Part shown: piece after piece, positions 3,899 to 63,554 of the stretch | How positions within the stretch are numbered: the stretch's first letter is position 1 | How the letters are laid out: the number at the start of each line of letters is the position of its first letter | Origin: Owenia fusiformis | Lineage: Eukaryota > Annelida > Polychaeta > Sabellida > Oweniidae | DNA: 64,000 nucleotides | NCBI GenBank assembly: GCA_903813345.2 | Contig: CAIIXF020000004.1 | Coordinates: 17,591,513-17,655,512, forward strand | Direction: 5' to 3' | Program-made: the position numbers and the translations under genes | The notes under the pieces: generated by a model | What the model was told of the DNA's origin: nothing | Seen by the model: the letters and a program-made list of their open reading frames with translations, nothing else | Databases searched by the model: none

Positions 3899-5032
3899 GA
3901 TAGGTGTTTACTACATACAGAGAGTGTAATTCACACTGAACTCAATAGAGTATGTGCAGGGGAAGGGTGTTCACTAGAGACAGGTGTTTACTACATACAG
4001 AGAGGGTAATTCACACAGAACTCAATAGAGTATATGCAGGGGAAGGGTGTTCACTAGAGACAGGTGTTTACTACATACAGAGAGGGTAATTCACACAGAA
4101 CTCAATAGAGTATGTGCAGGGGAAGGGTGTTCACTAGAGACAGGTGTTTACTACATACAGAGAGGGTAATTCACACTGAACTGAATAGAGTATGTGCAGG
4201 GGAAGGGTGTTCACTAGAGACAGGTGTTTACTACATACAGAGAGGGTAATTCACACAGAACTCAATAGAGTATGTGCAGGGGAAGGGTGTTCACTAGAGA
4301 CAGGTGTTTACTACATACAGAGAGGGTAATTCACACTGAACTCAATAGAGTATGTGCAGGGGAAGGGTGTTCACTAGAGACAGGTGTTTACTACATACAG
4401 AGAGGGTTATTCACACAGAACTCAATAGAGTATGTGCAGGGGAAGGGTGTTCACTAGAGACAGGTGTTTACTACATACAGAGAGGGTAATTCACACTGAA
4501 CTCAATAGAGTATGTGCAGGGGAAGGGTGTTCACTAGAGACAGGTGTTTACTACATACAGAGAGGGTAATTCACACAGAACTCAATAGAGTATGTGCAGG
4601 GGAAGGGTGTTCACTAGAGACAGGTGTTTACTACATACAGAGAGGGTAATTCACACTGAACTCAATAGAGTATGTGCAGGGGAAGGGTGTTCACTAGAGA
4701 CAGGTGTTTACTACATACAGAGAGGGTAATTCACACAGAACTCAATAGAGTATGTGCAGGGGAAGGGTGTTCACTAGAGACAGGTGTTTACTACATACAG
4801 AGAGGGTAATTCACACTGAACTCAATAGAGTATGTGCAGGGGAAGGGTGTTCACTAGAGACAGGTGTTTACTACATACAGAGAGGGTAATTCACACAGAA
4901 CTCAATAGAGTATGTGCAGGGGAAGGGTGTTCACTAGAGACAGGTGTTTACTACATACAGAGAGGGTAGTTCACACTGAACTCAATAGAGTATGTGCAGG
5001 GGAAGGGTGTTCACTAGAGACAGGTGTTCACA
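3899..5032 (+). repeat. 80-bp satellite array with a 160-bp higher-order period
   Basis: About fourteen near-identical 80-bp units (landmark CAGGTGTTTACTACATACAG recurring every 80 bp from 3981). Units alternate between ACACTGAAC and ACACAGAAC from about 4171 to the end, so the array is built of 160-bp pairs. Open frames across it are periodic artefacts. Confidence 0.95.
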
Positions 5033-48800: not shown

Positions 48801-51800
48801 AAAGTACTTGAATTCCTTTGAAATAGATCATCATTTTAATGAGTACAGTATATGATATTGTTTGCAGATGTATTCCTATTGTATATTATTATCATCATGG
48901 GCTTTCAACTGGGCTTTCAACTGGACTGAAAGTCCATGGTATCATACAGGAGAACATGAAAGTACCATAATACCTTAACTAAATAGAAAGATGGTGAAAA
49001 CTGATATAGATATCATTAATAAAAAAATATATACATATATTTCAACATATATAGTTATGTACATTATAAAACACACAGGGAATGCCATATCAAAAATGTA
49101 TTTCTGAATCAACATTGGAAACAATAACAAATTGGCTGCCCAGATGAGATATTACATATACATAAATAAGATTGCAAGATACACTGTTGCTCATATATAT
49201 GGAATATTTTTTAATTTACAGTTGATTTCCTCATTCCAATGTCCTCTCAAATTTTTATGAATGGAGAACAGCCAGGAAAAATAAACAACACATTTGTAAT
49301 TAACATGACACATTAACATGACACATTAACCACATTTTTCATTTCCCAGGAACTATTCCTTCAGAATCCATTGAAATCTTGGAGAATACTAAGGTAGTAA
49401 TATTCTTGAGAGTTATAAAGGTTTCCTGGAATACCTTTTTCAACTAAAGATTTTAAAACAATCACTCCCATACTTTCAAGCAATTAAAACTTTACGACAA
49501 ATACCGATTTTTGTGAAATGCCCAATATTCCATATATTTGACCAACAGCGTACATGTATATATCTGTATTAGCCCACTGAAAGTAATTGGATTTGTATTA
49601 TTGCCAAGTGACCTATTATACCATATTAGTGAAGTGAAGTTTAGTAACCTGATAGTTATAAGCAAATATATTGAAGTAGGGCTGAGGAACAAAAATGGTG
49701 AGCTTGTTATTTATTTATAATGAATTGTTTAAAAATACTGTACTTATCTATTTATTTTCATTATGACCAATATTAAAGTACTAGCGTTGAAGTGTCAGAT
49801 TGAAAAATACTTCAACATTGAATTATAGTGTTTATGTTTGTATGTATCCATTATTTCCCAATTTGTAATTGGAGTTTTTAAACCTAAGCACATTTATATA
49901 CAAGTATACAAGTTGACATGAACATTATTTACTTTCCTGAAAAAAGCAAGGAAATTGACATATGCCTTCATACTTTATTTTGTACCAGAAAATAACATGT
50001 GCATGTATAGCAATTTTTTACCAAAATGTTATTTTCCAGCTGAACCTTAAATCAATGTCCCCCAGGTTTATAATTTTATTGATGTATTTGAAGGACTGTT
50101 CTCGGCATAGATGCAATAAGTTGTGATTTTCTAACAAATATATTTTATTTGAAGTGTAATTAGATGTATCATGGGCAACATCTCTTGAATTCCCATGGAT
50201 ATTATAGAGGTCTATTACCATTACAATGACATATCAGTCACTACAATATACAATATACAAAAATCAACTAAAACTAAACTAACTAACTACAAAATACAAA
50301 AATACTAAATAAATAGAGCATGATAAAATCCATAAAAATATAAGTCAAGATAGATCTAAATCAGTTTAATATACAGCATGACTCCATGGTAAATAACATA
50401 CAAGTGTGATGTATCTTTGACACAATATTAATCCATTTTTTGAATGAATGATAAATGAACTTCGCTAAATGTAACAAAACATTTCAAATCAAAATGCCAC
50501 TCAAATCAACCAAAAGCATTTAGATTAAGAGGTGTTTGTCCATAAAGTCAACTTTTGTAACAAAAGTGTTAGTCCATCAGAAGAAGAAACACAGATTTTA
50601 TTATACGATGTAAAATGATCTAAAAACAATGAGACTATACAGACTAATGTAAACCAGAGAAATACACCATCCAACTTTGCCAAACATACAAGGAACATGG
50701 CTAACTGAAAGGAATCACACATGCCTGATCAAATGGGCGATCGTAATATTGTTAAGTAAATAAAGTACAAAGCTGTACTTGATATTCCATTCACCCATAA
50801 AATCAGTCCAATAGGGCACTTCAAATGTGACAATTGTTCTACAAAGATCATGTCATATTACAATGTTATATTTTACAGGCTGAGAAAGAGGATTGTGAAA
50901 GGAAAAAGGTGACTTTTACTGAGAGTCAAATAAAAGGTATGAGTTTAAATTATATACATATAATAATGTAATATGTAAATCAGTGTTTCGTGTATCGAAT
51001 TGGTATATTCATAATGGAATAGAAGTAGCTAAATGTAAAAAATCGAGGTCATAATTTTTTACATTTGACTTATATTAATGACTTATTAAATCCCTAGTAA
51101 AGCCTTAGTCACCCTAGTAAAGCCTTAGTCACTTAATATGTTCTATAGCAGCTGTAGCTTCACAAAAGTGATATCGAAAATCTATTTCATTCTGCTTATC
51201 CCTACATTTTAAGCTGCATATTTCTCTTGACTCTGGGAAGCAACGGTTGCTGTATGGTTTATCAAATGTAAATATAATGCAACACACTTTCCAGATTACA
51301 AGTCCACATTTAACTTATTTGATAGTGATAATAGTGGTACCATTGATCTCATGGAACTAGGAGATCTACTGAGGGGAATAGGACAGAACCCATCCAACAA
51401 AGAAGTTGAAGAATTAATTAAGAAGCATGATGTTAATCGTGAGTACCCTCAGCCATTTTCCAACAACCACGGGGTTTAACTTTATCCCATTTTCCAGAGA
51501 ATTATTTCTGAATTAAATGTATTGCATATATTGTCTATTTTACACAATATGACAACTAAAGCACATTTCACTGTTTTATTTTGTCAGTAGAACCCCAAAA
51601 TAAGAAATCAGGAGACCACTGTGCAATAATATATGGAAAAGTATATTCATAATGTACATGAATGACATTTGTAAAAGAGATTATTTAGTTTTTTGTGCAA
51701 TAAGCCTATGCCTTCTTGTAATTTAAAGAATTTCAGTCATGTTAATCTTTTTGAAAATACTATGGCAGAGAAGCATCAAAATATTTATTAGCTAAACTAG

Positions 51801-54800
51801 AAGCAATTCAAAATATATACAAATGTCATTTATGTACAATAGGAATATATTTTTCCATATATTATTGCACAATGATCTTTTGATTTCTTGTCTTTTACTT
51901 GCTTACATATATATTTCCCAATCCATATTCAGAGAATGGCAGGATGGAGTTTGATGAGTTCCTAGAGTTGATGAGTGTTACTGTGAAACCAGAAGAAGAA
52001 GTAGAAGATGAACTAAGACAGGCATTCAAAGTATTCGATAAAGATGGAAATGGATACATATCTGCAAAGTATGACAAATAATACATTTTCAATATGAACA
52101 TAATAACAATAATACCAGCTACGTAACTGTCTGTTAAATTCAGCTAAATTAACTTTATCCACCAAAGGAAAATATCAAAAATTCATCTAAAATCCAGGAT
52201 CTCAAAATATCCATGTGGAAATTGTAATAACATCTAAAGAGGACATTTATTAGAAAACTAATAAAATCCCTATGAACAGTATTGTTTGATTTATGTATTT
52301 GCAACTGGAGAGAAAATCACCTTTCATGATAAACTTTTAGAGTCCAGATATTGTTTTTCTCTAATGAAACCTATTTCTTTTATTATTTTAGGATTTATTA
52401 TATTCTAATGTTTTCAGAAAGATGTTTAGTAATATTAACCAAAATGTTTGGTGTTTTTAGAGAGATGTTGGTAGTATTAACCAAAATGTTTGGTGTTTTA
52501 AGAGAGATGTTGGTAGTATTAACCAAAATGTTTGGTGTTTTTAGAGAGATGTTGGTAGTATTAACCAAAATGTTTGGTGTTTTTAGAGAGATGTTGGTAG
52601 TATTGACCAAAATGTTTGGTGTTTTTAGAGAGATGTTGGTAGTATTAACCAAAATGTTTGGTGTTTTTAGAGAGATGTTGGTAGTATTAACCAAAATGTT
52701 TGGTGCTTTTAGAGAGATGTTGGTAGTATTGACCAAAATGGGAGAGGAAATGTCAATGGAAGAAGTCGAGGAATACATAATCAAACCCTGTGATGTGGAT
52801 GGGGATGGACGAATAAATTATGAAGGTAATTCATTTAAGTGTGAACAACTTGGTCTTTTGAACCCTGTAAGGAGAAACTTATTATCTTACACAGTTTTGA
52901 AATGTGCAAATGCAATCAACATGGGTTTAAACTTATAATTGGCAAAATTAAACTTTGTTCAATGTGCTTTCATTCTACCAAGTGTTATTGGTCTAGCCCC
53001 AACCATGGGCTTTCAATTAGCCCAACGGTCACGATTTTATGGCCATTTTCCAAAACATGCTGTAAAATACTGGTGTTGTGTCTGGAGGCTAACTTGGACA
53101 TATCTGGCAAAGTTGTTCATTACATGAGCACAGACATCTTTTGTAATGGCTCACATCTCCCTTCTTATCTCTTGTTTCAATGTTTTAAGGGTTGTTAGTA
53201 TTGACATCAACCCCACAAATAAAACTCTGGGGTGTTTCATGTCTAGTGAGTGTGGCCTACTGTAGCTGTTGCGGCATTTAGACCATGTTTTGGAAAGGGC
53301 CATAACATTGTGACCAATGAAACTGGGAAGAAAAAGGAACAATTGAACAAGGTTTGATTGTCCCAAATATGACTCTAAGCCCATGCTGGTGACCGAGTTA
53401 TTAAGATACATTTGTTCGGATTAAATTTTTTGGCTCACCCTGTATATGATAATATATAATGGTGTAATAATCTATTTTCAGAGTTTGTAGAAAAATTCAT
53501 GGGAACCAGTTAACGATTGAAACAACGGCAATACTGTGAGGTAGACAATCCAGTCCAATAAACATTTACATTGGTTGAGAAACAGTGCCTACATGAGGCA
53601 GATGACCGAGTCAAATTTCACAATTATCTATAGAGCTACAACCAAAACTTGGACTTCTTTTTATGTATTTCTGCTACAAAAAAACTGTTTAAATGGTGCA
53701 AGGTGGCTCAAGGGTATTTACCTAAAGTATGAAATATAACAAATATGTACATACAATTTGAATTTGAAAGAAAAATAAATGAATAAATGTTATAAATGTG
53801 CTTTGGTGACTAGAATTAGAATGTCAGATTTCCTGTAATTAGCTCACCTACTTCCCACATTTTACATACGGTATGTGGAAAACAAAGTCCCATGAAATAT
53901 CTGGACCCCCTCCCCCTATCTAAATCCTGTATACTCCCTTGTGGTGTGTAGTCACATGGGCTTGCACCTACTACTGTTCTTTAAAAATACCATGCAAAGT
54001 AAAAGCGCTTTGGCTAAGCATATTTCACATGATTTGCATCATATCACATTGCATCACATGACATTGGTGTATTCATGCTTGCTGTATTTTGTACTTACAT
54101 AGGATTTTCTCTGAGTTCATTCAACTTCTGTATATAGTTGGCCTTGAACTTGTGGGCCCTTTCAACAGCATCTTTGGTATTCGGCTGACTTGATATAGCC
54201 CTCTGGACAAACTGAAACATAAGTATGGAGGCTGCTATAAGGGACAAAGCAATGCACAAGGTAATGCTAGAGCTACATCCTGGGAGCTAGCACAAAAAAA
54301 CAAACTACATGTAGCTAGCACATTTTGCTCATTACAAAAGTTGCCCAATAAATCATATGACAATAATTTCAAGCTGGGTGTATTCAGAAACACAATTGGG
54401 AGATTTTGATATTTGGATATAATTACGCTGAAACAACATTTGTAATGGAAAAACCACTGACATGGTTGCGCCTACCCCATCTATAGCATCTTGGAAACAA
54501 TTGAGCCAGTATTCCATGGCAAGGTGGTCTTGTGTGAGGTCCTCTGTATCAGGAAAGTAACTAGCTGGGTCTAACAGCAATGGGAAATGCACCTGTGGTT
54601 TCTCATAGCGATCCAACTCAAACATGTCAAACTGAAAGTACAGTATACGAGGGGTGAATCAAAAGTAATGGACACAACAAAAAATATAACCCATTTCCTT
54701 CATCATATGTATTTCTTATTTATTGTTCTACAGTATGATAAAAAATAGGATCAAATTGGATTTTATGTAATTATATTTAAACAAATTTTCCCACTGTTCC

Positions 54801-57800
54801 TGGGGTAGTTCACTGTATTGTACTCACGGTGGAGCTTCTGTCCCTGGGGAGGGGGTTTTCAAATGCACGGGGGCTAGGAAGACCCGAACTGGAATACAAA
54901 TTCTCTTTCCATCCTGTCACATCCATATCTGACCATCTCCAGGAGTACTTCTCTGAATCTGAAACATAATGCATTGTGGGTAGAGTACACAGTGAATATA
55001 ATTTGGTGCTGTTTTGGCACCATTCTGACACCAAATTCTGTTGATGTTGTTTTGATGCTGAAATTCTGCAGATTTTGGCACAGAATGTATATTGACATTT
55101 TGACACCAACATTCGGCACCATTCCGGCATCAAATTTTGTCAAAACAGCACCAAATGTATTCTAAGCTGTTTGGCACTGAAATACGTTGCTGTTCAAACG
55201 CCAACTTTCCTCACCATTCTTGCATCAAATTTTGTCGAAATAATACATCCTCATACTTGTCTGCGAAGCATGAAATGGTGTGAGAGTAATACAAACAGCG
55301 CACAGTTAATTGATTTTACATTGATTAATTTTAACTTAACTTATATTAATGCATTTTGGGTAAAATATGAGTTAATGTCCCCTCATAAAAAATATTGGGA
55401 GAGAAAACATCCTGTTGATCATTTTCATGTACAGTACTTGTATTATTTAAAATCTAAATCTATTTCTCAGAGAATCCTATTATACCTGCTTCTTCAGTGC
55501 CCTTGAGGAATGCCCCTATAGCACCAAGATAGCCTTCATGCCTCAGGAAAAGAGCATGGATGTCTCCCTGGAATTGAAATACAAAATCACAATATTATCA
55601 AAATCCATGATGCGATGTAAGTCAGTATAAGTACGTGTACATAGTTTGCCTTCAATTAACAATCAATTGGACCATGGGCTTTCAACTAGAATTGAAAGCC
55701 CATGATTGGACAGAAGAAATTTTCAAGAACGGGACACTAAATTGACACTAATTTTATTTAACAAAATTATGCAAAATTACCTTTGACCAGTAATTGATAG
55801 CAAATGTGATGGTGTGCATTGTCATAGGATGGCCCCGAATGAAATATCCTCCAAAATATATCTTTTTTAAGCCATGTAGTTTTGCATTGAGGTAGGCGAT
55901 TTGGCCAATATCATTACTGATGCCTAGGAGCAGACTCTTTGCAATGTCTTCTGGTTTGTGACTAACATCTGGAAACAGAAACAAATTAGGTTTATCACTT
56001 TGATTCAGCGCCATCTATAGCACTACTTGCGTTGCTATGCAATGATGCCATATTGGATCTTAATCAATTCATAAAAGAAGTACCTATCATCAAATTTCAA
56101 GTTGGAGCCGCTGTGAATGTTGAGCTTATAAATGTGATGTTTGCAATGAAATTTGCAGAAATTGAGATTAATCAAAGCTCTTTATTATGAATAGTAATTA
56201 ATTATGTTATTTAGACACATGAAGAAATAAAAACATTTGGAAAGACAAATCAACATTAGAAATCAGCATTAAAAATCAGACATCAGAAAATAACATTCGT
56301 AATTGGAGATCTGAACAAAGCCCTAATGCAGAATATGCCCTGCCATATATATCCTTAGTTGCACTTTAACAAGACAATAGTAGAATATTACCTTCAGTTC
56401 CTCCAGCAGATCTAGCTGCCCTACCAAAGCTACTAGCTATAAGATCTGAAGGAAGCCCTAATGCAGAATATGCCCCACCATATATATCCTTCACAAGCAT
56501 ATCAATATTGCGGTGATCTCCTTTCTCTGCCAGGTGTAGTAGATGATCAAACCCCTGGAAGATAAAAGATAAATGAACAAGATTTCCATGCATATTCAAG
56601 CACTTATGTGAAGTATACAACATATGGGTCAACAGAGAGAAGGCAGTGGTGGATTCTTCATTTAAATGTTCTTTAAAGGAATATTCCTTGCCAAACCATC
56701 TTTCTCCTCATATGGTAGCTATAACCATATATATGCTTGCCATGTTTAGCAAAACACGCAAAAATGTTTTGATATGGTCTTTGATCACTTAGAAATGTGA
56801 TGCTCAATTCCAGTAAGCTGCCATCTTTCAAAATTTCACACAGGAAGTGATGTCATCGACTCTCAACTTTGCATATAGCATTAGGTGAGGAGCTATTAAG
56901 AATTACAAAACCAGCTAAATATTCTTTTTCAACTTTGTATCTTATTTAATCCTTCTGAAAATCTCTTCTTTTATTCTAAGTTGACAAGCCCTGAAAATGT
57001 TATCACTTGTCTAGAAGTAATTTTGTGCTACTTTCCTATACTGTTATGGGCAAGCTTATAGAAGTTGAGAGTTGATGACATCACTTCCTGCAAGAAATCT
57101 TAAAAGATGGCAGCTCACTGGAAATAAGCACTAGATTTTTAAATGATCAATATTGACCATATTAAAACATTTTCCCATGTTTTGCTAAATATGGAAACTA
57201 TGTATATGATTAAAGCTACCATATCAAGAGAGAAAGGGTCTGGCAAGGAATATTCCTTTAATGTCATCTTTCTGTTGATCTTGTCCCTATGGCATCATAC
57301 ACAAAAAAAGATAATCAGCTATAACATATCCTTTAAAGGTATTTCATCTTGGAATCAATGAAAAGTCCTTGAGCGAGTGAGAGTGATATCCACTTGGTCA
57401 ATATGAGAGATATCATGAACAATTCATAAATTGATGAGTCTGACTGGTTTGCAATGTACCTTGGCTTGTGTGAGCAGAGAGCCCAGTCCCCAGAAGGTCC
57501 CGCCTCCCATGGAAGTGCCACCTATACGCTCATACTTGCTCTCTGACTCAACCTATAAATATGAATGACATAATATCTGTAATCATCTTAAGATATTGCC
57601 TTCATAATATATTTCCAGGTATATATTTACTAAACCTTTGAGTTTTAAATATTAAGACCAATGATTATATTCATGTAAACATATCTCAATTATGCTAAGT
57701 ATATCCATGAGAGTTAATATATTTTTCAATATTGAAAATAAATCTGATTGTAACTTTCCATTCGATAAACTCAGTATCCCTTACCAAAGTATTAATACAG

Positions 57801-57994
57801 TATCACTCACCTTTAGTATGCTCACTCCAGAGCCAATGTTTACTAGAAGATATGGGAAGACATTTGGATCAACTGGCTCAAATCTGTACTCAGGCATCTC
57901 ATGTCTCTGAAACATGAATGCCTCATCAGGAATGTTATTCAGGAGGAAGTTGCAGCCTTTAATCAAGCATTCCATCTCATCTTCCTTGTCAACC
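36892..57994 (-). CDS. PANK4: PANK4, C-terminal 13 coding exons
   Basis: Two-domain protein of coenzyme A metabolism: a pantothenate-kinase-like half and a DUF89 metal-dependent phosphatase half, reported to hydrolyse 4'-phosphopantetheine-type metabolites. Exons in transcript order: 57811-57994, 57460-57552, 56392-56554, 55781-55968, 55486-55567, 54828-54958, 54476-54631, 54099-54211, 41331-41418, 40684-40888, 40084-40238, 37859-38028, 36892-37120. All junctions are GT-AG and in phase, giving about 651 residues to a TGA stop. Human PANK4 has 773, so roughly 120 N-terminal residues are missing and must lie beyond the window. Kinase-half motifs: [58 protein letters not shown]. Phosphatase-half motifs: [23 protein letters not shown] (metal-binding Asp-Asn), [25 protein letters not shown]. 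The 12.7-kb intron 41419-54098 contains a retrotransposon and an antisense gene. The position equivalent to catalytic Arg207 of active PANKs is Arg (YERIGG). Confidence 0.97.
38267..40037. mobile_element. TIR element with about eleven internal ~137-bp units
   Basis: The left end TATGTCACCACC (itself followed by its inverse, GGTGGTGACATA-like, and duplicated at 38315) is inverted at the right end as GGTGGTGACATTTTG. After a GGCGTCCGGCGGTT-rich stretch come about eleven units containing TCTGACTTTAGATTTGACAT, CAATGACCTTCTCAAGGTCA and CAACTTGCTTCAAATTGACT. It fills most of the PANK4 intron 38029-40083, and its right edge lies under 50 bp from the donor of the exon 40084-40238. No transposase. Confidence 0.8.
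40479..40650. mobile_element. MITE of the TACAGTAAAACCTGT family
   Basis: Ends TACACTGAAACCTGT and ACAGGTTTTACTGTA. The interior has GTGGAACACCTCTGTTA words shared with 7611-7808. It lies in PANK4 intronic DNA, 33 bp from the donor side of exon 40684-40888. Confidence 0.65.
41430..41663 (-). repeat. Ngaro repeat B2
   Basis: Starts TTTATGTTCATGTAGAG and ends near TTGGGCGAAAATAA. It matches 41971-42063 plus 42617-42763, the B1 copy interrupted by an insertion. Its outer edge is only about 10 bp from the PANK4 exon acceptor at 41418. Confidence 0.85.
41704..41970 (-). repeat. Ngaro repeat A2
   Basis: About 267 bp, nearly identical to 48518-48787 (shared AAGAATCGAAATGTATAACT at one end and CAATAATTTGAATT at the other). 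Confidence 0.9.
42064..42616. mobile_element. MITE inserted in Ngaro repeat B1
   Basis: B2 gives the empty-site sequence (GAGCCAATTAACAC). In B1 about 553 bp interrupts it, with inverted ends ACTCCTATTCGCGATAA and TTATCGCGTATTGGT. It carries TGACGTCA (42327-42334), CCAAT-type boxes and a GC-richer interior. It is younger than the retrotransposon insertion or than its last B1-B2 homogenisation. Confidence 0.7.
43195..44075 (-). pseudogene. Tyrosine recombinase of the Ngaro element
   Basis: Three shifted frames together show a tyrosine recombinase. The SAM-like N-terminal region has [12 protein letters not shown] (near 44030). The first catalytic Arg is in RSSELTST (near 43625). The SGPLFI segment lies near 43430. 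The HxxR box reads [11 protein letters not shown] (near 43310), followed by DDYTIKRLG and the Tyr-bearing KYIR. The last part runs through a short TATG/TGTA microsatellite. Frameshifts near 43850, 43635 and 43335 make it inactive. Confidence 0.85.
44080..45320 (-). pseudogene. Reverse transcriptase and RNase H of the Ngaro element
   Basis: Fragments in changing frames: [12 protein letters not shown] and SPLFLVPK (near 44950-45010), then in a shifted frame [12 protein letters not shown], then [18 protein letters not shown] (near 44830). The RNase H-like end has [10 protein letters not shown] (near 44230) and [12 protein letters not shown] (near 44095). These match the RT-RH region of DIRS/Ngaro elements. 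The central RT core with the YxDD box was not clearly seen. Multiple stops and frameshifts. Confidence 0.8.
45325..46012 (-). pseudogene. Gag-like region of the Ngaro element
   Basis: A frame opens at an ATG (46012) with MSETEGPN and a Ser/Thr/Pro-rich stretch. Further on, in another frame, [19 protein letters not shown] (near 45365) is typical of the conserved patch in DIRS/Ngaro gag proteins. It is followed by a His/Cys cluster ([10 protein letters not shown], near 45265). Interrupted by stops. Confidence 0.6.
46095..46725 (-). repeat. AT-rich tandem repeat inside the Ngaro element
   Basis: About six units of roughly 105-120 bp with TAATATAAATATGAT, AATACACTGCATAAATAAAT and GAATTATCATAA. 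It lies between the SGNH-like and gag-like frames, an unusual position. Confidence 0.88.
46880..47544 (-). pseudogene. SGNH-hydrolase-like frame of the Ngaro element
   Basis: The 153-codon frame (47083-47544) contains [14 protein letters not shown] (block I with the nucleophile Ser), [14 protein letters not shown] (block III, GxND) and ITLAEQYLD. Further 3' in another frame is [13 protein letters not shown] with the DxxH of block V (near 46930). Some Ngaro elements are known to encode SGNH/GDSL hydrolases. Here the frame lies upstream of gag and RT, at the 5' end. Confidence 0.75.
48518..48787 (-). repeat. Ngaro repeat A1 (5' end)
   Basis: About 270 bp matching A2 (41704-41970). The boundary is at GAATT, after which the flanks diverge (AATGCATG here, TATGTTC at the A2/B1 junction). 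Confidence 0.9.
48788..49690. other. Intronic/intergenic DNA before the EF-hand gene
   Basis: No recognised gene. A short inverted repeat around CATGGGCTTTCAACTGG and CTGAAAGTCCATGG lies near 48897-48939. The promoter and 5' UTR of the EF-hand gene should lie here, but no TATA box was assigned. Confidence 0.35.
49695..53513 (+). CDS. Calmodulin/troponin-C-like protein, four EF hands
   Basis: Predicted cytosolic calcium sensor of 161 residues. Exons: ATG alone at 49695-49697 (donor GTGAGC), 50879-50936, 51295-51438, 51933-52068, 52713-52825, 53482-53513 (stop TAA). An intron straight after the initiator ATG is a hallmark of calmodulin-family genes. Loops: EF1 [14 protein letters not shown]2 [14 protein letters not shown]3 [14 protein letters not shown]4 [12 protein letters not shown]; all have Asp at position 1 and Glu at 12. 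A charged N-terminal extension ([14 protein letters not shown]) and the C-terminus KFMGTS set it apart from calmodulin itself; troponin C or a calmodulin-like protein are both possible. It lies antisense within a PANK4 intron. Exon 5 is preceded by an amplified series of in-frame acceptors (see 52418-52740). A candidate poly(A) signal is at 53774. Confidence 0.95.
51108..51285. mobile_element. MITE related to 14865-15667, without nested insertion
   Basis: TTAGTCACTTAATATG, GCAGCTGTAGCTT, GCTTATCCCTACATTTTAAG and ATAATGCAAC match the two outer halves of the arrestin-intron element in order. It ends just before EF-hand exon 3, whose acceptor is at 51294, so element DNA supplies the upstream part of that splice site region. 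Confidence 0.7.
52418..52740 (+). repeat. 42-bp tandem repeat of a 3' splice site plus exon start
   Basis: Each unit is TTTGGTGTTTTTAG (pyrimidine tract and AG) followed by AGAGATGTTGGTAGTATTAA and CCAAAATG (start of EF-hand exon 5). Possible exon starts lie at 52461, 52503, 52545, 52587, 52629, 52671 and 52713, each 42 bp apart and in the same frame, with no stop codon between them. A diverged unit starting at 52418 is out of frame. The last unit (52713) joins the rest of the exon and is taken as the ancestral start. The unit starting at 52587 and the last share a TTGACC variant. Confidence 0.95.
52950..53450. repeat. Inverted-repeat segment in the last EF-hand intron
   Basis: GGTCACGATTTTATGGCC with TTTTCCAAAACATG (53027-53059) is mirrored by CATGTTTTGGAAAGGGCC with ATAACATTGTGACC (53283-53315). 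The segment ends in GGCTCACCCTGTATA, resembling mariner-type ends seen elsewhere in the window. Probably a transposon remnant; its left edge is not defined. Confidence 0.5.
53514..54098. other. EF-hand gene 3' UTR and adjacent PANK4 intron
   Basis: AATAAA at 53774-53779 is a likely poly(A) signal for the plus-strand EF-hand gene. Nothing else recognised before PANK4 exon 54099-54211. Confidence 0.45.
54985..55165. repeat. Degenerate repeat of GGCACCA / GACACCAA words
   Basis: Repeated TTTGGCACCATTCTGACACC-like phrases with TTCTG and TTTTG spacers occur in the PANK4 intron between exons 54828-54958 and 55486-55567. Confidence 0.6.
56308..56356 (-). repeat. PANK4: Intronic copy of a PANK4 exon fragment
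   Basis: This 49-bp segment repeats 56443-56491 of the neighbouring PANK4 exon with few differences (shared GCCCTAATGCAGAATATGCC). It lies about 35 bp past the exon's donor, in the intron. Confidence 0.85.
56677..57257. mobile_element. Palindromic TTAA-flanked MITE, copy 2
   Basis: Ends AGGAATATTCCTTGCCAAAC and GTCTGGCAAGGAATATTCCT, with TTAA on both sides (56673-56676, 57258-57261). It is related throughout to 28451-29052, and its left end matches that copy's right end, so the two lie in opposite orientation. It is in a PANK4 intron. Confidence 0.75.
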
Positions 57995-58004
57995 CTGAAA
58001 GTAT

Positions 58005-58420
58005 ACGATCAACAATGAAAGTCTGTGATCAACCATGAAAGTACATGATACAACCATCCAATGAAAGTATGTGATCAACCCTGAAATAGGCTAAAAGTAC
58101 ATGATCAACCCTGAAAGTATGTGATCAACCATGAAAGTATATGCATCAACCATGAAAGTATATGATCAACCATGAAAGTACATGATCAACCATGAATGTA
58201 CATGATCAACCATGAAAGTACATGATCAACCCTGAGAGCACATGTTTAACCATGAAAGTACATGTTCAACCATGAAAGTACATGTGCAATCATGAAAGTA
58301 CATGATACAACCATCCAATGAAAGTATGTGATCAACCCTGAAATAGGCTAAAAGTACATGATCAACCCTGAACGTATGTGATCAACCATGAAAGTATATG
58401 ATTCAACCATAAAAGTATAT
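58005..58420. repeat. 18-20 bp minisatellite next to a PANK4 exon
   Basis: About twenty units of CATGAAAGTACATGATCAAC with variants, including a larger internal duplication (ACCATCCAATGAAAGTATGT occurs twice). It begins about 10 bp upstream (minus-strand sense) of the acceptor of exon 57811-57994. Confidence 0.88.
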
Positions 58421-59983
58421 ATACTTAGACAGGCCAAAAGTGTTTGGATTTTTAAGTCTTTTAAAAGATTTAATCAAAATAAATAAATAAATAATATAAA
58501 TGAAATATTCATTATTTTGTGTTTTTTAAAATTCCCTGCAGTTCAGTTTCATATAGTTTTGATATGTAGTTTATTGTTTTAGAGTTTATTGACTTTTCAT
58601 TTTTCAATCAGGCTGAAAAACCATGAGCTTTCAAGAAAAAGGGAAAAACCATCACTACAATCTACATCCTGTACATTTATTGGCAAAAAAATCAATAAAA
58701 TTTATGCAATAAAATTATGCTGTCCTCTCGTTGTTTATTTACAAGACTGCATTCAATTTCACAAACAACATTATGACTATTTATCAATTATCTAATAAAT
58801 TCCATTGAAAATTAAGTCATATTTATAATAAATTCCCAACAATATTTCTTTTTCATTTCATTTAAGGGATACGGGTATTACAGGTATTTCTCCATAAATG
58901 AGCCAAAATCTGTAGTTAAGACCAACAGAAGTAAACCCTTTAATATCAAACCTTTTTTGCTTCTATTTCCCTTCATATCGCATTAATTTAAATGATTATA
59001 TAAAGCCTGATATTTTGAAGTTTTTTAACCAAACTGGGTAATTTATTGCTCACTATTTCCACTCTTTCCACTCTATTTTGTGTTTTTAACATTAGACCCC
59101 TGTGATATTATATTTATAGGATAATCCATGTCTCAGAAAGCTATTTGTATAGCATAAATATAACAATACTAACTTTCAAATAAAATATCTATACTTAACT
59201 ACAAAAAGTGAAAATAAGTGGGATTTGTAGGCAATTTAGCAAGCCATTCATTGCATTGTGAAACAAAGACAAGAAATTATACTGAAATGGTAGACAGCAC
59301 TGTATTTCATTAGACACTTATCTGAATGAATGAAACAAGATGAACATGATTGGGGTGACATGTAAAGCAAGGGTAAACTTGAGGAATGATTCTATTAATG
59401 CGACCTTATTGAAGTTTTCCAACTAATGCAAGGTATATGCAACAGAACAAGGTCTTATAACTAATGTACCATTGTCCTAAAGCGTGGAATCTCCTGAAAA
59501 TCCAAACAGAATATGTTCTCTGGACTTTTGAATTTAGGATAGCAGACATACCAATAGGAACAACTCGACAGGTCACAAGTGATATTGGTACATTTAATCT
59601 CATATAACTACTGCAATTAGCACCAAAGCATCAGAAATCCATGTAAGTGCAAACTTTCTACAATTAAAGTGATTCATAACTGAACCATTCTCAAGTAAAT
59701 GTTTGAAATTGTTCCATTAATGAAAGAATCTGGAGAACAAATCCATGAAAGGCTTAAACATCAAGAAGAAACTGTTAAAATACAAATAAAATAAGAATAC
59801 AAACTGTAAATGAACGATGTTATCCCACTTTTATGTTACCAATATTTTAATAAATCTCAGATTTCATTTCAGAACAATATGGCAGATTATTAGCTAGAGA
59901 AACCCTCAAAAATATGAGCATGAATTTATGTTATTGTCAATACCTGATGAAATATTATATACTGTTTCAGACTTATTGACAAC
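58421..59983. other. 5' flank of DHHC gene 1
   Basis: Noncoding, with blocks matching 61600-62400 upstream of DHHC gene 2 (for example TTTTTAACCAAACTGGGT). A candidate 5' UTR intron runs from CGACAG/GTCACA (59572) to TTTCAG (59970). Confidence 0.5.
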
Positions 59984-61153
59984 ATGGCAGAAGGCAAGTC
60001 AAAATCAGAGAAGAAGTACAGTGAGAAATCCCTGGCTGAGAAGTATAACGAGATCCTTAGCAACAAAGAAAACTTCAAAGTGACTCCCAAACATGTCAAT
60101 GCACTGGCTCCCATATGGTTCATTGTAACCATGTTTTGCACATTCTATTTGGGACAGTTCTGTGTGGCCCCTGTGGTGCATGCAAGCTATGAACTCTCTG
60201 CCAGTACAGAGTATGTTCTATATGGGATCTCATACTGGGCATTTGCGCAGTTGGTGATGAATTGGTACTGTATACGCAATGTAGGAAGTATATATAGAAA
60301 CACAGCACGTGTTGTTGAAAAAAATGATAACCATGTGCATATAAGTGAAGTAAATGGATCTAATAAAGGACAAAATTATGCAACAAAGGACAGAAGTGAG
60401 GAAAATGAAAAATCATTAGAAAATAATGATGGAGAGAATGCAGGATCGTTGGTATGGAAACGCTCAAGAGGAGATGGTCAAATTTATGCTGTGAAAATGC
60501 CTGCAAGTGGAGCTAATAACCCTGATCATGGACATTCTGTAGGTCTATGCCCTGAACAACCAGTCATGTACTCATACTGGTCATGGAAACCTTGTTTAAT
60601 ATGCCAATATAATGTTCCACCAAGAACTCACCACTGCCCGCTGTGTAAAGCATGCATCTTGAAACGAGATCACCATTGCTACTTCACAGGTCGATGCATT
60701 GGACTAAACAACCAGCGTCACTTTATTGTGTTTGCATTCTGGGCCTTCTTTGCCTGTACCTTATCAGTGATATATACTCTGTTTTATACATACATTATGA
60801 TATCCCATCTTGGTCAATTATCATGGACGGATATTTTAGTACCTGTTACGTTTGTCCGTTGGTGTTTGGGATATACTGGATTCTATCATGTGATCTTATA
60901 TTTCGTGGTTAATAACCTAGCATTTTTTATGATCGTCACTTTCAGGTATGTCAAATTTCAGTTGATATTTATCAGAAAAGGCGTCACGGCATTTGAGTAT
61001 GATTACAGGATTAAAATCCAGAATACAAATTCTTTTCACAAAGAATTGAAATCAGTATTTGGTGACCATTGGTATTTGAATTTTATTTTTCCTTGCCACA
61101 ATATCTTCCCTCTTCGACAGAATGCTCTTGATTGGCCGAATATTAAACAATAA
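59984..61153 (+). CDS. DHHC palmitoyltransferase, copy 1 (389 aa)
   Basis: Predicted membrane protein S-acyltransferase that transfers an acyl group from acyl-CoA to cysteines of target proteins. The Cys-rich domain (about 204-250) has CLICQYNVPPRTHHCPLCKA and KRDHHCYFTGRCIGLNNQRH; the catalytic DHHC is residues 229-232. Hydrophobic segments at about 42-65, 76-97, 247-273 and 300-320 fit the four-TM topology. TAFE (335-338) fits the TTxE-type motif. The CRD resembles ZDHHC22/24-type proteins (RDHHC followed by FTG), but the orthologue is not certain. The coding region is one uninterrupted exon, unusual beside the intron-rich neighbours. The start ATG follows a TTTCAG acceptor by 13 bp. The stop codon lies inside AATAAA (61149-61154). 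Confidence 0.95.
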   Translation: MAEGKSKSEKKYSEKSLAEKYNEILSNKENFKVTPKHVNALAPIWFIVTMFCTFYLGQFCVAPVVHASYELSASTEYVLYGISYWAFAQLVMNWYCIRNVGSIYRNTARVVEKNDNHVHISEVNGSNKGQNYATKDRSEENEKSLENNDGENAGSLVWKRSRGDGQIYAVKMPASGANNPDHGHSVGLCPEQPVMYSYWSWKPCLICQYNVPPRTHHCPLCKACILKRDHHCYFTGRCIGLNNQRHFIVFAFWAFFACTLSVIYTLFYTYIMISHLGQLSWTDILVPVTFVRWCLGYTGFYHVILYFVVNNLAFFMIVTFRYVKFQLIFIRKGVTAFEYDYRIKIQNTNSFHKELKSVFGDHWYLNFIFPCHNIFPLRQNALDWPNIKQ

Positions 61154-62402
61154 AACAAGGACTAGTCTGAAGTATTCTGTCTATTACCAAATAAAACAAG
61201 GAACTAGTCTGTTTATCTATCAAACAATGAAACAAGGACATCAATTATTCAAAAAATGAAACAATGAAATTAGGATTCATTGTATACTAATAGAACCAAA
61301 TATTCAACAATGAAACATAAACTTGCCAACCACCCAAACAATGAATCTATCAATGAACTATATGTACATGTATTGGACAAGGACAAAAACTGACCATAAA
61401 TGTCTAAATGTGGAAGACTATACATGTACATGTATGATATTTAGTAGTTTTGAAATTAGTAACAAGAATGACTGCTTTTACAGTACCTCTATATAAGAAT
61501 TATGTAATGACATGGGTATTTAGCAGTTAAATTTAATAGAGCTCTGGTTAAGTATTTTGAGAAATTAAGATGATTATAAATTATAGTATTATTAGACAAA
61601 ATTTTTAATGAATACTCTAATACACATGCATTTATGTATTCATTTGACAACATAAATTTTACATACAACATTATGGCTATCAAATAAATAATGAGTTCCA
61701 TAGGAATTTAAGTTATATGTTATGTTATTCATTTAAGAGTCATATTCAAAATAAATTTCTTTTTCATTTTACTAAAGGGATACATGTATTAATCCATATA
61801 AATGAAGCAAATTCTAAGTTAAATTAGAATTAAATCTTTCAAAATCAAGTTGGTTATTATGCTTTGTATCACTCAATATCTCTTTAAAACTTAAATCATA
61901 TACATGTAATTGTGACTTCCTGATTTTGTGGTCTTTTTAACCAAACTGGGTGATTTAATTCTTGCTAATTTCACTCTTTTCAACTCGTTTCTTGTTTTCA
62001 ACAAGAGCTTTGTGATACTTTATTGATAGGATAATCCAAGTTTTGGAAAGCTATTATGTATAACAATACCAACTCTCAAATAAAATATCTCCATTGCCCC
62101 ATGATTAATTGCAACAAATGTGAAAAAGGTAAAAACCCATTGTTAAAATATATTGAAATAGAAAACCCTGAGTTTTATGGTGCAATTAAAGAGAAAATAT
62201 ACAAATTAAACACAAAAGGGGTGGCATATAAAGCAAGGGCAAACAATAAGATCAATTTGAATCATGTTCATATTAATTTTGTAACTGAAGGTTCAGGAAA
62301 TAAATAATACGGTCAATAAGTAGTTGGACTCTCCTTAGTGAAAGCATTGTTCTCTGGATTTCTGAATTGAAGCAGTGATACCAAGAGGGAAGGACTGACA
62401 TA
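61154..62402. other. Spacer between the DHHC genes
   Basis: Noncoding. The second half repeats the upstream flank of copy 1, showing that the duplication included 5' DNA. An 83-codon frame (62056-62307) has no family features and is not maintained in the paired upstream region. Confidence 0.5.
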
Positions 62403-63554
62403 ATGGCAGAAGAGAAATCCAAAGCAGAGAAGAAGTGCAAAGAGCAAACACTGACTGAGAAGTATAATAAGTTCCTTAGCAAGATAGACAATTTCCAAGT
62501 GACTCCTGAAGACGTCAATAGATTTGCTCCAATGTGGTTCATCATAGTCATGTTTTTCACCTTCTATTTAGGACAATTATACATTGTTCCCACTGTGCAT
62601 GCAACCTACCAACTGTCTTTTAATATGGAGTGTTTCTTATATGGGGTCTTGTACTTGGCTTTCATTGAATTGCTGGTGAACTGGTATTACATACGTAATG
62701 TGGAAAGTAAACATAGAAACACAACACAGACAGTAAAAACTGATGATAACCATGCACATAATGGTGATGAGAATGACGCTAAGAAAGACAAAAATGAAGG
62801 GACAATGGATGGAGGTGATATGGCACAGACAGACAAACTTAAATCATCAGCGAAAAGGGATAATGGACAGGATACAGGATCATTGGTATATAAACGCTTC
62901 AGAGGAGATGGTCAAATCTATGCTGTGAAAATGCCTTCAAATGGAGCTAAATCTGAACAACCAGTCATGTACTCATACTGGTCATGGAAACCTTGTTTAA
63001 CATGCAAACGTAATGTTCCACCAAGAGCTCACCACTGTCCACTGTGTAAAGCATGCATCTTGAAACGAGATCACCATTGTTACTTCACAGGTCAATGTAT
63101 TGGACTGAACAACCAGCGTCACTTTATTGTCTTTACATTCTGGATAATATTTGCGAGTACTGTATACCTAACATACACTCTGCTTTATACATACATCATG
63201 ATTTTCAATCTTGGACAATTATCATGGATGGATATCTTTCTACCAGCAACATTTGTCCGTTGGTGTATGGGTTATACTGCATTCTATCAAGTGATCTTAT
63301 ATTTTGTTGTTTACAGTTTAGCTTTCTTTATGATGCTCTCATTCAGGTATATAATATTTCAGCTGAGATTTATAAGAAAAGGTATAACATCTTTCGAATA
63401 TGAATGTAAGATCAAAATTAAGAATGCAAATTCTTTTTATGAGGAGCTGATATCAGTATTTGGTGACCATGGGTATATGAATTTCATTTTTCCTTGCCAC
63501 GATATCTTCCCTCTTCGACAAGATGCTCTTGATTGGCCAAATATAAAACAATAA
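62403..63554 (+). CDS. DHHC palmitoyltransferase, copy 2 (383 aa)
   Basis: Tandem paralogue of the gene at 59984, similar along its whole length, most strongly in the Cys-rich domain (DHHC at residues 223-226, KRDHHCYFTGQCIGLNNQRH) and C-terminus (FPLRQDALDWPNIKQ). The most divergent part is the hydrophilic linker at about 105-185, where copy 2 has a different Asp/Lys-rich stretch. ITSFE replaces VTAFE at the TTxE-type site. Single coding exon; stop codon again inside AATAAA (63550-63555). The sequence just before the ATG aligns with the copy 1 region upstream of its candidate intron, so copy 2 appears to lack that intron. Both reading frames are intact, suggesting both are functional. Confidence 0.95.
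   Translation: MAEEKSKAEKKCKEQTLTEKYNKFLSKIDNFQVTPEDVNRFAPMWFIIVMFFTFYLGQLYIVPTVHATYQLSFNMECFLYGVLYLAFIELLVNWYYIRNVESKHRNTTQTVKTDDNHAHNGDENDAKKDKNEGTMDGGDMAQTDKLKSSAKRDNGQDTGSLVYKRFRGDGQIYAVKMPSNGAKSEQPVMYSYWSWKPCLTCKRNVPPRAHHCPLCKACILKRDHHCYFTGQCIGLNNQRHFIVFTFWIIFASTVYLTYTLLYTYIMIFNLGQLSWMDIFLPATFVRWCMGYTAFYQVILYFVVYSLAFFMMLSFRYIIFQLRFIRKGITSFEYECKIKIKNANSFYEELISVFGDHGYMNFIFPCHDIFPLRQDALDWPNIKQ

Follow-up and report, generated by a model that had tools for sequence, protein, structure and literature searches.

A 42-bp minisatellite across the exon 5 acceptor of a calmodulin-like gene in the annelid Owenia fusiformis, with similar arrays at other splice boundaries of the genome

Minisatellites that straddle an exon–intron boundary are known from amphioxus under the name of 'mirages', and were reportedly dealt with by Canestro (2002) and Yuasa (1998), as relayed by the papers that cite these two. 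In the accounts given in PMC3087553 and PMC3902484, mirages are found in the globin genes BflGb6 and BflGb9, in Adh3, in troponin C and in PGBD5. The BflGb6 array repeats the 3' end of an intron together with the 5' part of the following exon, with six and three units on two haplotypes, and RT-PCR is described as suggesting that the gene is spliced regularly (PMC3087553). Likewise, the mirages of Adh and troponin C are stated to generate no aberrant mRNAs (PMC3902484). A related situation is described for human segmental duplications, where internal tandem repeats at exon–intron boundaries have units of ~ 30 bp repeated four times on average, and where transcripts of primate-specific paralogues either keep the repeats or splice them out, novel introns also being reported (PMC2812944). 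Tandem genomic duplication, moreover, appears in PMC4974935 and PMC2891723 as a route to intron gain, in which local duplication supplies the extra splice signals.

The array considered here lies in a calmodulin-like gene within the window, i.e. the whole stretch of 64,000 nucleotides of Owenia fusiformis DNA that was analysed. Like the amphioxus mirages, it is a tandem duplication spanning an exon–intron boundary (TRF: 52409–52740, period 42, 7.9 copies, 96% matches), in which each unit consists of 14 bp of intron end (TTTGGTGTTTTTAG) and 28 bp from the start of exon 5 (AGAGATG...AAAATG). As in those mirages, an edge copy has diverged and the inner copies are homogenised, here at the 5' edge only, and the calmodulin-like gene that carries it belongs, like troponin C among the reported amphioxus hosts, to the EF-hand genes. 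The array departs from them in its spiralian host, in a 42-bp unit that is in frame and open, and in having eight copies as against three to six in BflGb6. With the human boundary repeats, as they are described, it has in common that a minisatellite has expanded at an exon–intron boundary, whereas the present gene is a single-locus one, known from genome sequence alone. The extra splice signals are also shared with published cases of intron gain by tandem duplication, but the resemblance of intron 4 to exon 4 is not significant. Engineered constructs with duplicated splice sites, such as the globin minigenes of the 1980s, place equivalent acceptors in competition within one intron; compared with these, the calmodulin-like array is natural, seven- to eightfold and contained within ~ 300 bp.

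In other words, the kind of array is already known from amphioxus, and what is new is that mirages recur in a genome outside the cephalochordates. Searches of the open-licence literature, judged by titles and the beginnings of abstracts, turned up no mirages described from annelids or other spiralians; an earthworm metallothionein gene is described as having intronic minisatellites (PMC12783039).

The host gene and its array

The host gene, on the + strand, encodes a four-EF-hand calmodulin-like protein, the loops of which are canonical in the translation when exon 4 is joined at 52713. Exon 1, which presumably holds the start Met, lies upstream of exon 2 and was not located. Exon 2 occupies 50879–50936 (TACAG^GCTGAG ... 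AAAAG^GTATGA, where the caret marks the splice junction), and its frame runs on into exon 3 (51295–51438), which encodes EF-hand 1 and the start of EF-hand 2. Exon 4 (51933–52068, donor AAA^GTATGA) supplies the rest of EF-hand 2, the linker and the EF-hand 3 loop as far as ISA plus two bases of the next codon. Exon 5 (52713–52825), placed by calmodulin homology, begins at the last acceptor of the array and ends ...INYE, and the last coding exon (53482–53513) ends in the stop; all of these are on the + strand. With a query translation that was one residue too long where exons 3 and 4 meet, Pfam EF-hand_7 was matched at 8.9e-33 in two stretches corresponding to the EF-hand pairs, and the best 60 PDB relatives shown by phmmer were calmodulins or calmodulin fusions, the calmodulin alignment being gapless across the 52713 junction.

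The closest paralogues in the genome (L003–L008, with 47–53% identity over the matched stretch) have an uninterrupted C-lobe exon, without an intron at the site of the array, and the paralogues L010, L011, L014 and L016 apparently have introns nearby, at differing positions. On sequence comparison, these differences suggest that introns may have been gained repeatedly or may have slid. The idea that intron 4 is itself a degenerate copy of exon 4 was considered and rejected: a local alignment seemed promising at first, with plain shuffles as good in 12/300 cases, but dinucleotide shuffles were as good or better in 25–946/1000, a range that depends on the scoring scheme and on the part of the intron aligned; among 194 real segments of the window, 11 or 47 aligned to an equal or better degree.

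Seven near-identical 42-bp units are found by TRF and by unit listing at 52447–52740 (+), the intron/exon border within the unit being set by calmodulin homology rather than by cDNA. Their acceptors fall at 52461, 52503, 52545, 52587, 52629, 52671 and 52713 (52461 + 42k, k = 0 to 6). The translations of all seven, joined to the end of exon 4 at 52068, are in frame and free of stops, such that 6/6 of the unit acceptors upstream of the genic one are in frame and open. An earlier note on this DNA had described this arrangement, a 42-bp unit repeated across the start of exon 5 with seven acceptors from 52461 to 52713, all in the right phase and with no stops in the units, and in these respects TRF, the unit listing and the open translations from exon 4 agree with it. 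Its placing of the added segment directly after the last ligand Glu of EF-hand 3 is also correct by translation. Its count of seven holds for the in-frame acceptors, but it missed an eighth, decayed copy at the 5' edge (copy 0, 52404–52446, +), which on alignment differs from the unit by one extra base and seven substitutions, and the acceptor of which, 52418 (TTTTCAG^AAAG), is out of frame and runs into a stop.

The inner units vary at few positions and, unlike the 5' edge copy, the one at the 3' edge shows no divergence. Point changes between units include the AAG at 52503 (TTTTAAG), a TTG in two units and GCTTTTAG ahead of the last acceptor; at the protein level, the repeated 14-residue segment has an FGVLR variant once and an FGAFR variant preceding the last copy. 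Every array acceptor is preceded, at a distance of 23 nt and within the exon-like bases of the unit before it, by TATTAAC or TATTGAC. Since each unit has its own branch-point-like motif at this distance, it comes near to being a 3' splice site in full. When a 25-base core taken from the unit was searched for in the whole assembly, seven matches were obtained at ≤ 2 mismatches, all of them in this array, and the locus is present once in the assembly. That the unit is repeated at all lies far outside chance; that it is in frame does not, as a unit simulated in a simple way on the introns of this gene is both a multiple of three and stop-free with a probability of ~ 0.22.

Arrays at other splice boundaries

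Boundary-spanning tandem arrays are present at 11/267 sampled exon boundaries from three gene families (7/187, then 4/80 in a kinase replicate), where the denominator is approximate because Ras boundaries were taken as a profile match ending inside the domain and each exon of the calmodulin and kinase families was counted as having two ends. No amphioxus estimate appears in the available text of PMC3087553 or PMC3902484 for comparison. The calmodulin sample began with 20 loci of 38 matches and was reduced to 17 by removing three that belonged to the window gene; the Ras sample comprised 30 loci and 80 short stretches chosen among 153 matches, and the protein kinase sample 40 stretches of 144 matches, hand-picked for short open frames and with three close paralogues skipped. 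A frequency of this order in a spiralian suggests that mirage formation is a wider mutational habit, extending beyond amphioxus. The Hox genes of the assembly agree with a spiralian rather than with amphioxus: a homeodomain was present in nine of ten Hox fragments, among which are a Lox5-like gene with KLTGP following the homeodomain, further central genes and a Post2-like gene.

The acceptor arrays are those of L003 (38 bp × 4.6), L099 (41 bp, with few exon bases in the unit), L119 (52 bp), L129 (65 bp), L137 (121 bp, also with few exon bases, the TRF row ending just before the AG and the remainder being matched by eye), L140 (113 bp) and L169 (51 bp). Donor arrays occur in L117 (20 bp) and L157 (54 bp), and one exon of a PAK-like kinase (L148, C5:69221–69977) has both, with an 86-bp unit at its acceptor and a 71-bp unit at its donor.

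Three further arrays stand outside the 11/267 count, namely that of the window's calmodulin-like gene and those of two genes which we take to be Rab27-like and PANK4-like; these and similar names are our recognition of the sequences, the searches having given Pfam families only. In the Rab27-like gene (L061:2160–2801 together with L055:1–1322, C7) a donor array repeats a 45-bp unit at least 38 times; the unit consists of the exon end (...LWDTAGQER) and the donor GTAAGT, and the choice of a later donor would lead to an in-frame TAA being read. The PANK4/Fumble-like gene is a neighbour in the same window, with a Pfam Fumble match on its exon in 56369–56707, and contains the window's second acceptor array, a 20-bp unit × 19.8 (TRF) at 57989–58417 on the – strand. 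This unit includes TTTCA(G/T)^GGTTGA, and the array extends 6 nt into the exon beginning at 57994. Of 18 listed intervals, six, among them the genic one, have CAG at their end (four of these TTTCAG), and the others CAT or a variant of it. All 14 arrays together comprise ten of acceptor type and four of donor type; among the sampled boundaries a bias towards acceptors (8/132 vs 3/135, Fisher P 0.13) is not claimed.

Unit lengths are divisible by three in 4/13 arrays, or 4/14 when the 20-bp PANK4-like unit is counted. Multiplication that served to make isoforms would favour lengths in threes, and 4/14 therefore indicates no phase preference. Upstream acceptor copies were called by a simple rule in the ten acceptor arrays; in the window gene this rule also caught AGs that are not unit acceptors, which were set aside. 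In the nine other arrays it yielded 20 upstream copies, none of them from L099, of which 16 are out of frame, four are in phase but stopped, and none is both in frame and open. Both upstream copies of L148 are out of frame, and L003 and L129 each have one that is in phase but stopped. Frame-keeping across similar arrays, as regulated tandem 3' splice sites would show, is absent (0/20). In L003, three of the four upstream acceptors reach the 12.56 of the genic one, with 4.15 for the outermost, and both scorable upstream acceptors of L129 equal theirs (11.98), so acceptors of equal strength at unusable positions are evidently tolerated. The window gene is the sole exception among the ten acceptor arrays in having upstream unit acceptors in frame and open. 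Given ~ 0.22 expected per array, one such array of ten is no excess.

Which acceptor is used

The array is probably a splice-boundary minisatellite of the 'mirage' type, with 52713 as main acceptor and an in-frame geometry that arose by chance. A 42-bp segment over the 3' splice site of exon 5 would have been tandemly duplicated and then expanded; the 3'-most copy would preserve both exon and acceptor, and the upstream copies would lie in the intron, such that their growth would be tolerated. Splicing would then take place mostly at 52713 to give a normal four-EF-hand protein, with the upstream acceptors used rarely or never, and it would be chance that 42 is divisible by three and that the added frame is open. 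We infer both the acceptor that is used and the neutrality of the array, 52713 being taken as the main site because of calmodulin homology and the amphioxus reports.

The strengths of the acceptors do not all point the same way. With a scoring matrix derived from the acceptors of 70 Ras-family exons in this genome, the array acceptors score 7.2–9.9, which places them at the 27th to 44th percentile of that set. Against the mirage reading, the genic acceptor 52713 scores 8.27, slightly under five of its copies (8.88), and each copy has a branch-point-like motif of its own. In this regard, the scanning rule, by which the first AG after the branch point is preferred (PMC1431707), would together with such a motif in each copy favour the upstream acceptors.

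On the reading put forward in the earlier note, the gene would use several in-frame acceptors, generating isoforms in 14-residue steps after EF-hand 3 over a range set by an individual's copy number. This is possible from the sequence, yet less likely than the mirage reading and, in our estimation, unlikely. The seven acceptors are all in frame and open, with an AG and a branch-point-like motif; their scores are nearly equal and the genic acceptor is no stronger than its copies; the array differs from the nine other acceptor arrays; and the human repeats at exon–intron boundaries are described as able to alter splicing (PMC2812944). The earlier note describes the acceptors as equivalent; 52503, an AAG site, is the weakest of the array on the own-genome matrix. 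On the other side, an in-frame open geometry arises by chance about once in five, so that a single case in ten is no excess, the units of most other arrays are not multiples of three, and added copies would presumably double the hydrophobic F-helix inside the C-lobe. By analogy with amphioxus BflGb6, copy number plausibly varies between individuals.

A broader proposal is that the splice boundaries of this spiralian are hot spots of minisatellite growth, perhaps through mutation targeted to exon edges, such that a few percent of introns would have arrays and an in-frame minority would give a copy-number isoform spectrum varying between individuals. The 11 observed arrays compare with 1.53 expected from the repeat density of exon flanks (P 7e-7), 2.75 from the pooled density (P 1.4e-4) and 6.35 when the denser repeats of the window serve as background (P 0.06); without L099 and L137, whose units take in < 10 nt of exon, nine are observed, with P of 3e-5, 0.002 and 0.19 under the same three nulls. 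A placement test within ± 200 bp flanks gave P 0.01. A strong claim of enrichment was dropped, since P swings from 7e-7 to 0.06 with background density; enrichment at splice boundaries is likely, to an extent dependent on the null chosen. Two mechanisms fit, the tolerated growth of ordinary minisatellites and a mutational preference for exon edges, and of these we favour the first; the hot-spot proposal as a whole we regard as rather doubtful. If it were true, the genome would be a natural series of experiments in competing splice sites. Arrays of near-identical splice sites offer natural genes in which to ask which copy the spliceosome picks, and why, and a wider mutational habit of this kind could feed changes of intron boundary, allele-specific isoforms and errors of gene annotation.

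The best-scoring acceptor of intron 4 lies outside the array, and was missed in the earlier note. It is the AG before 52392 (+, TTCTTTTATTATTTTAG^G), and its score of 12.83 equals the 90th percentile among the 70 acceptors. Were this the true acceptor, the array would be wholly exonic, and the protein would contain the 14-residue segment about eight times; the join is in frame and open, and an open frame extends from 52333 to 52938. However, the position-12 Glu of EF loop 3 would become Ile (ISAKE to ISAKI), and homology speaks against 52392 because this ligand would be lost. The first copy is also shifted by 1 bp relative to its acceptor, and a wholly exonic array is accordingly judged highly improbable. 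Inflation of the repeat number by the assembler, for which one could cite the single copy of the locus in the assembly and the lack of a second haplotype as confirmation, can hardly be credited, given that the units differ by point changes and that unrelated arrays of like design occur at other splice sites.

Other features of the window

Rfam gave no matches on the 64-kb window, and mitochondrial COX1 gave none in the assembly. At 3902–5028 there is an 80-bp × 14.1 array, the copies of which are 98% alike, as in a young large minisatellite. Beyond the PANK4-like gene, two adjacent long open frames on the + strand (59951–61150 and 62379–63551) encode DHHC palmitoyltransferase domains and are apparently intronless.
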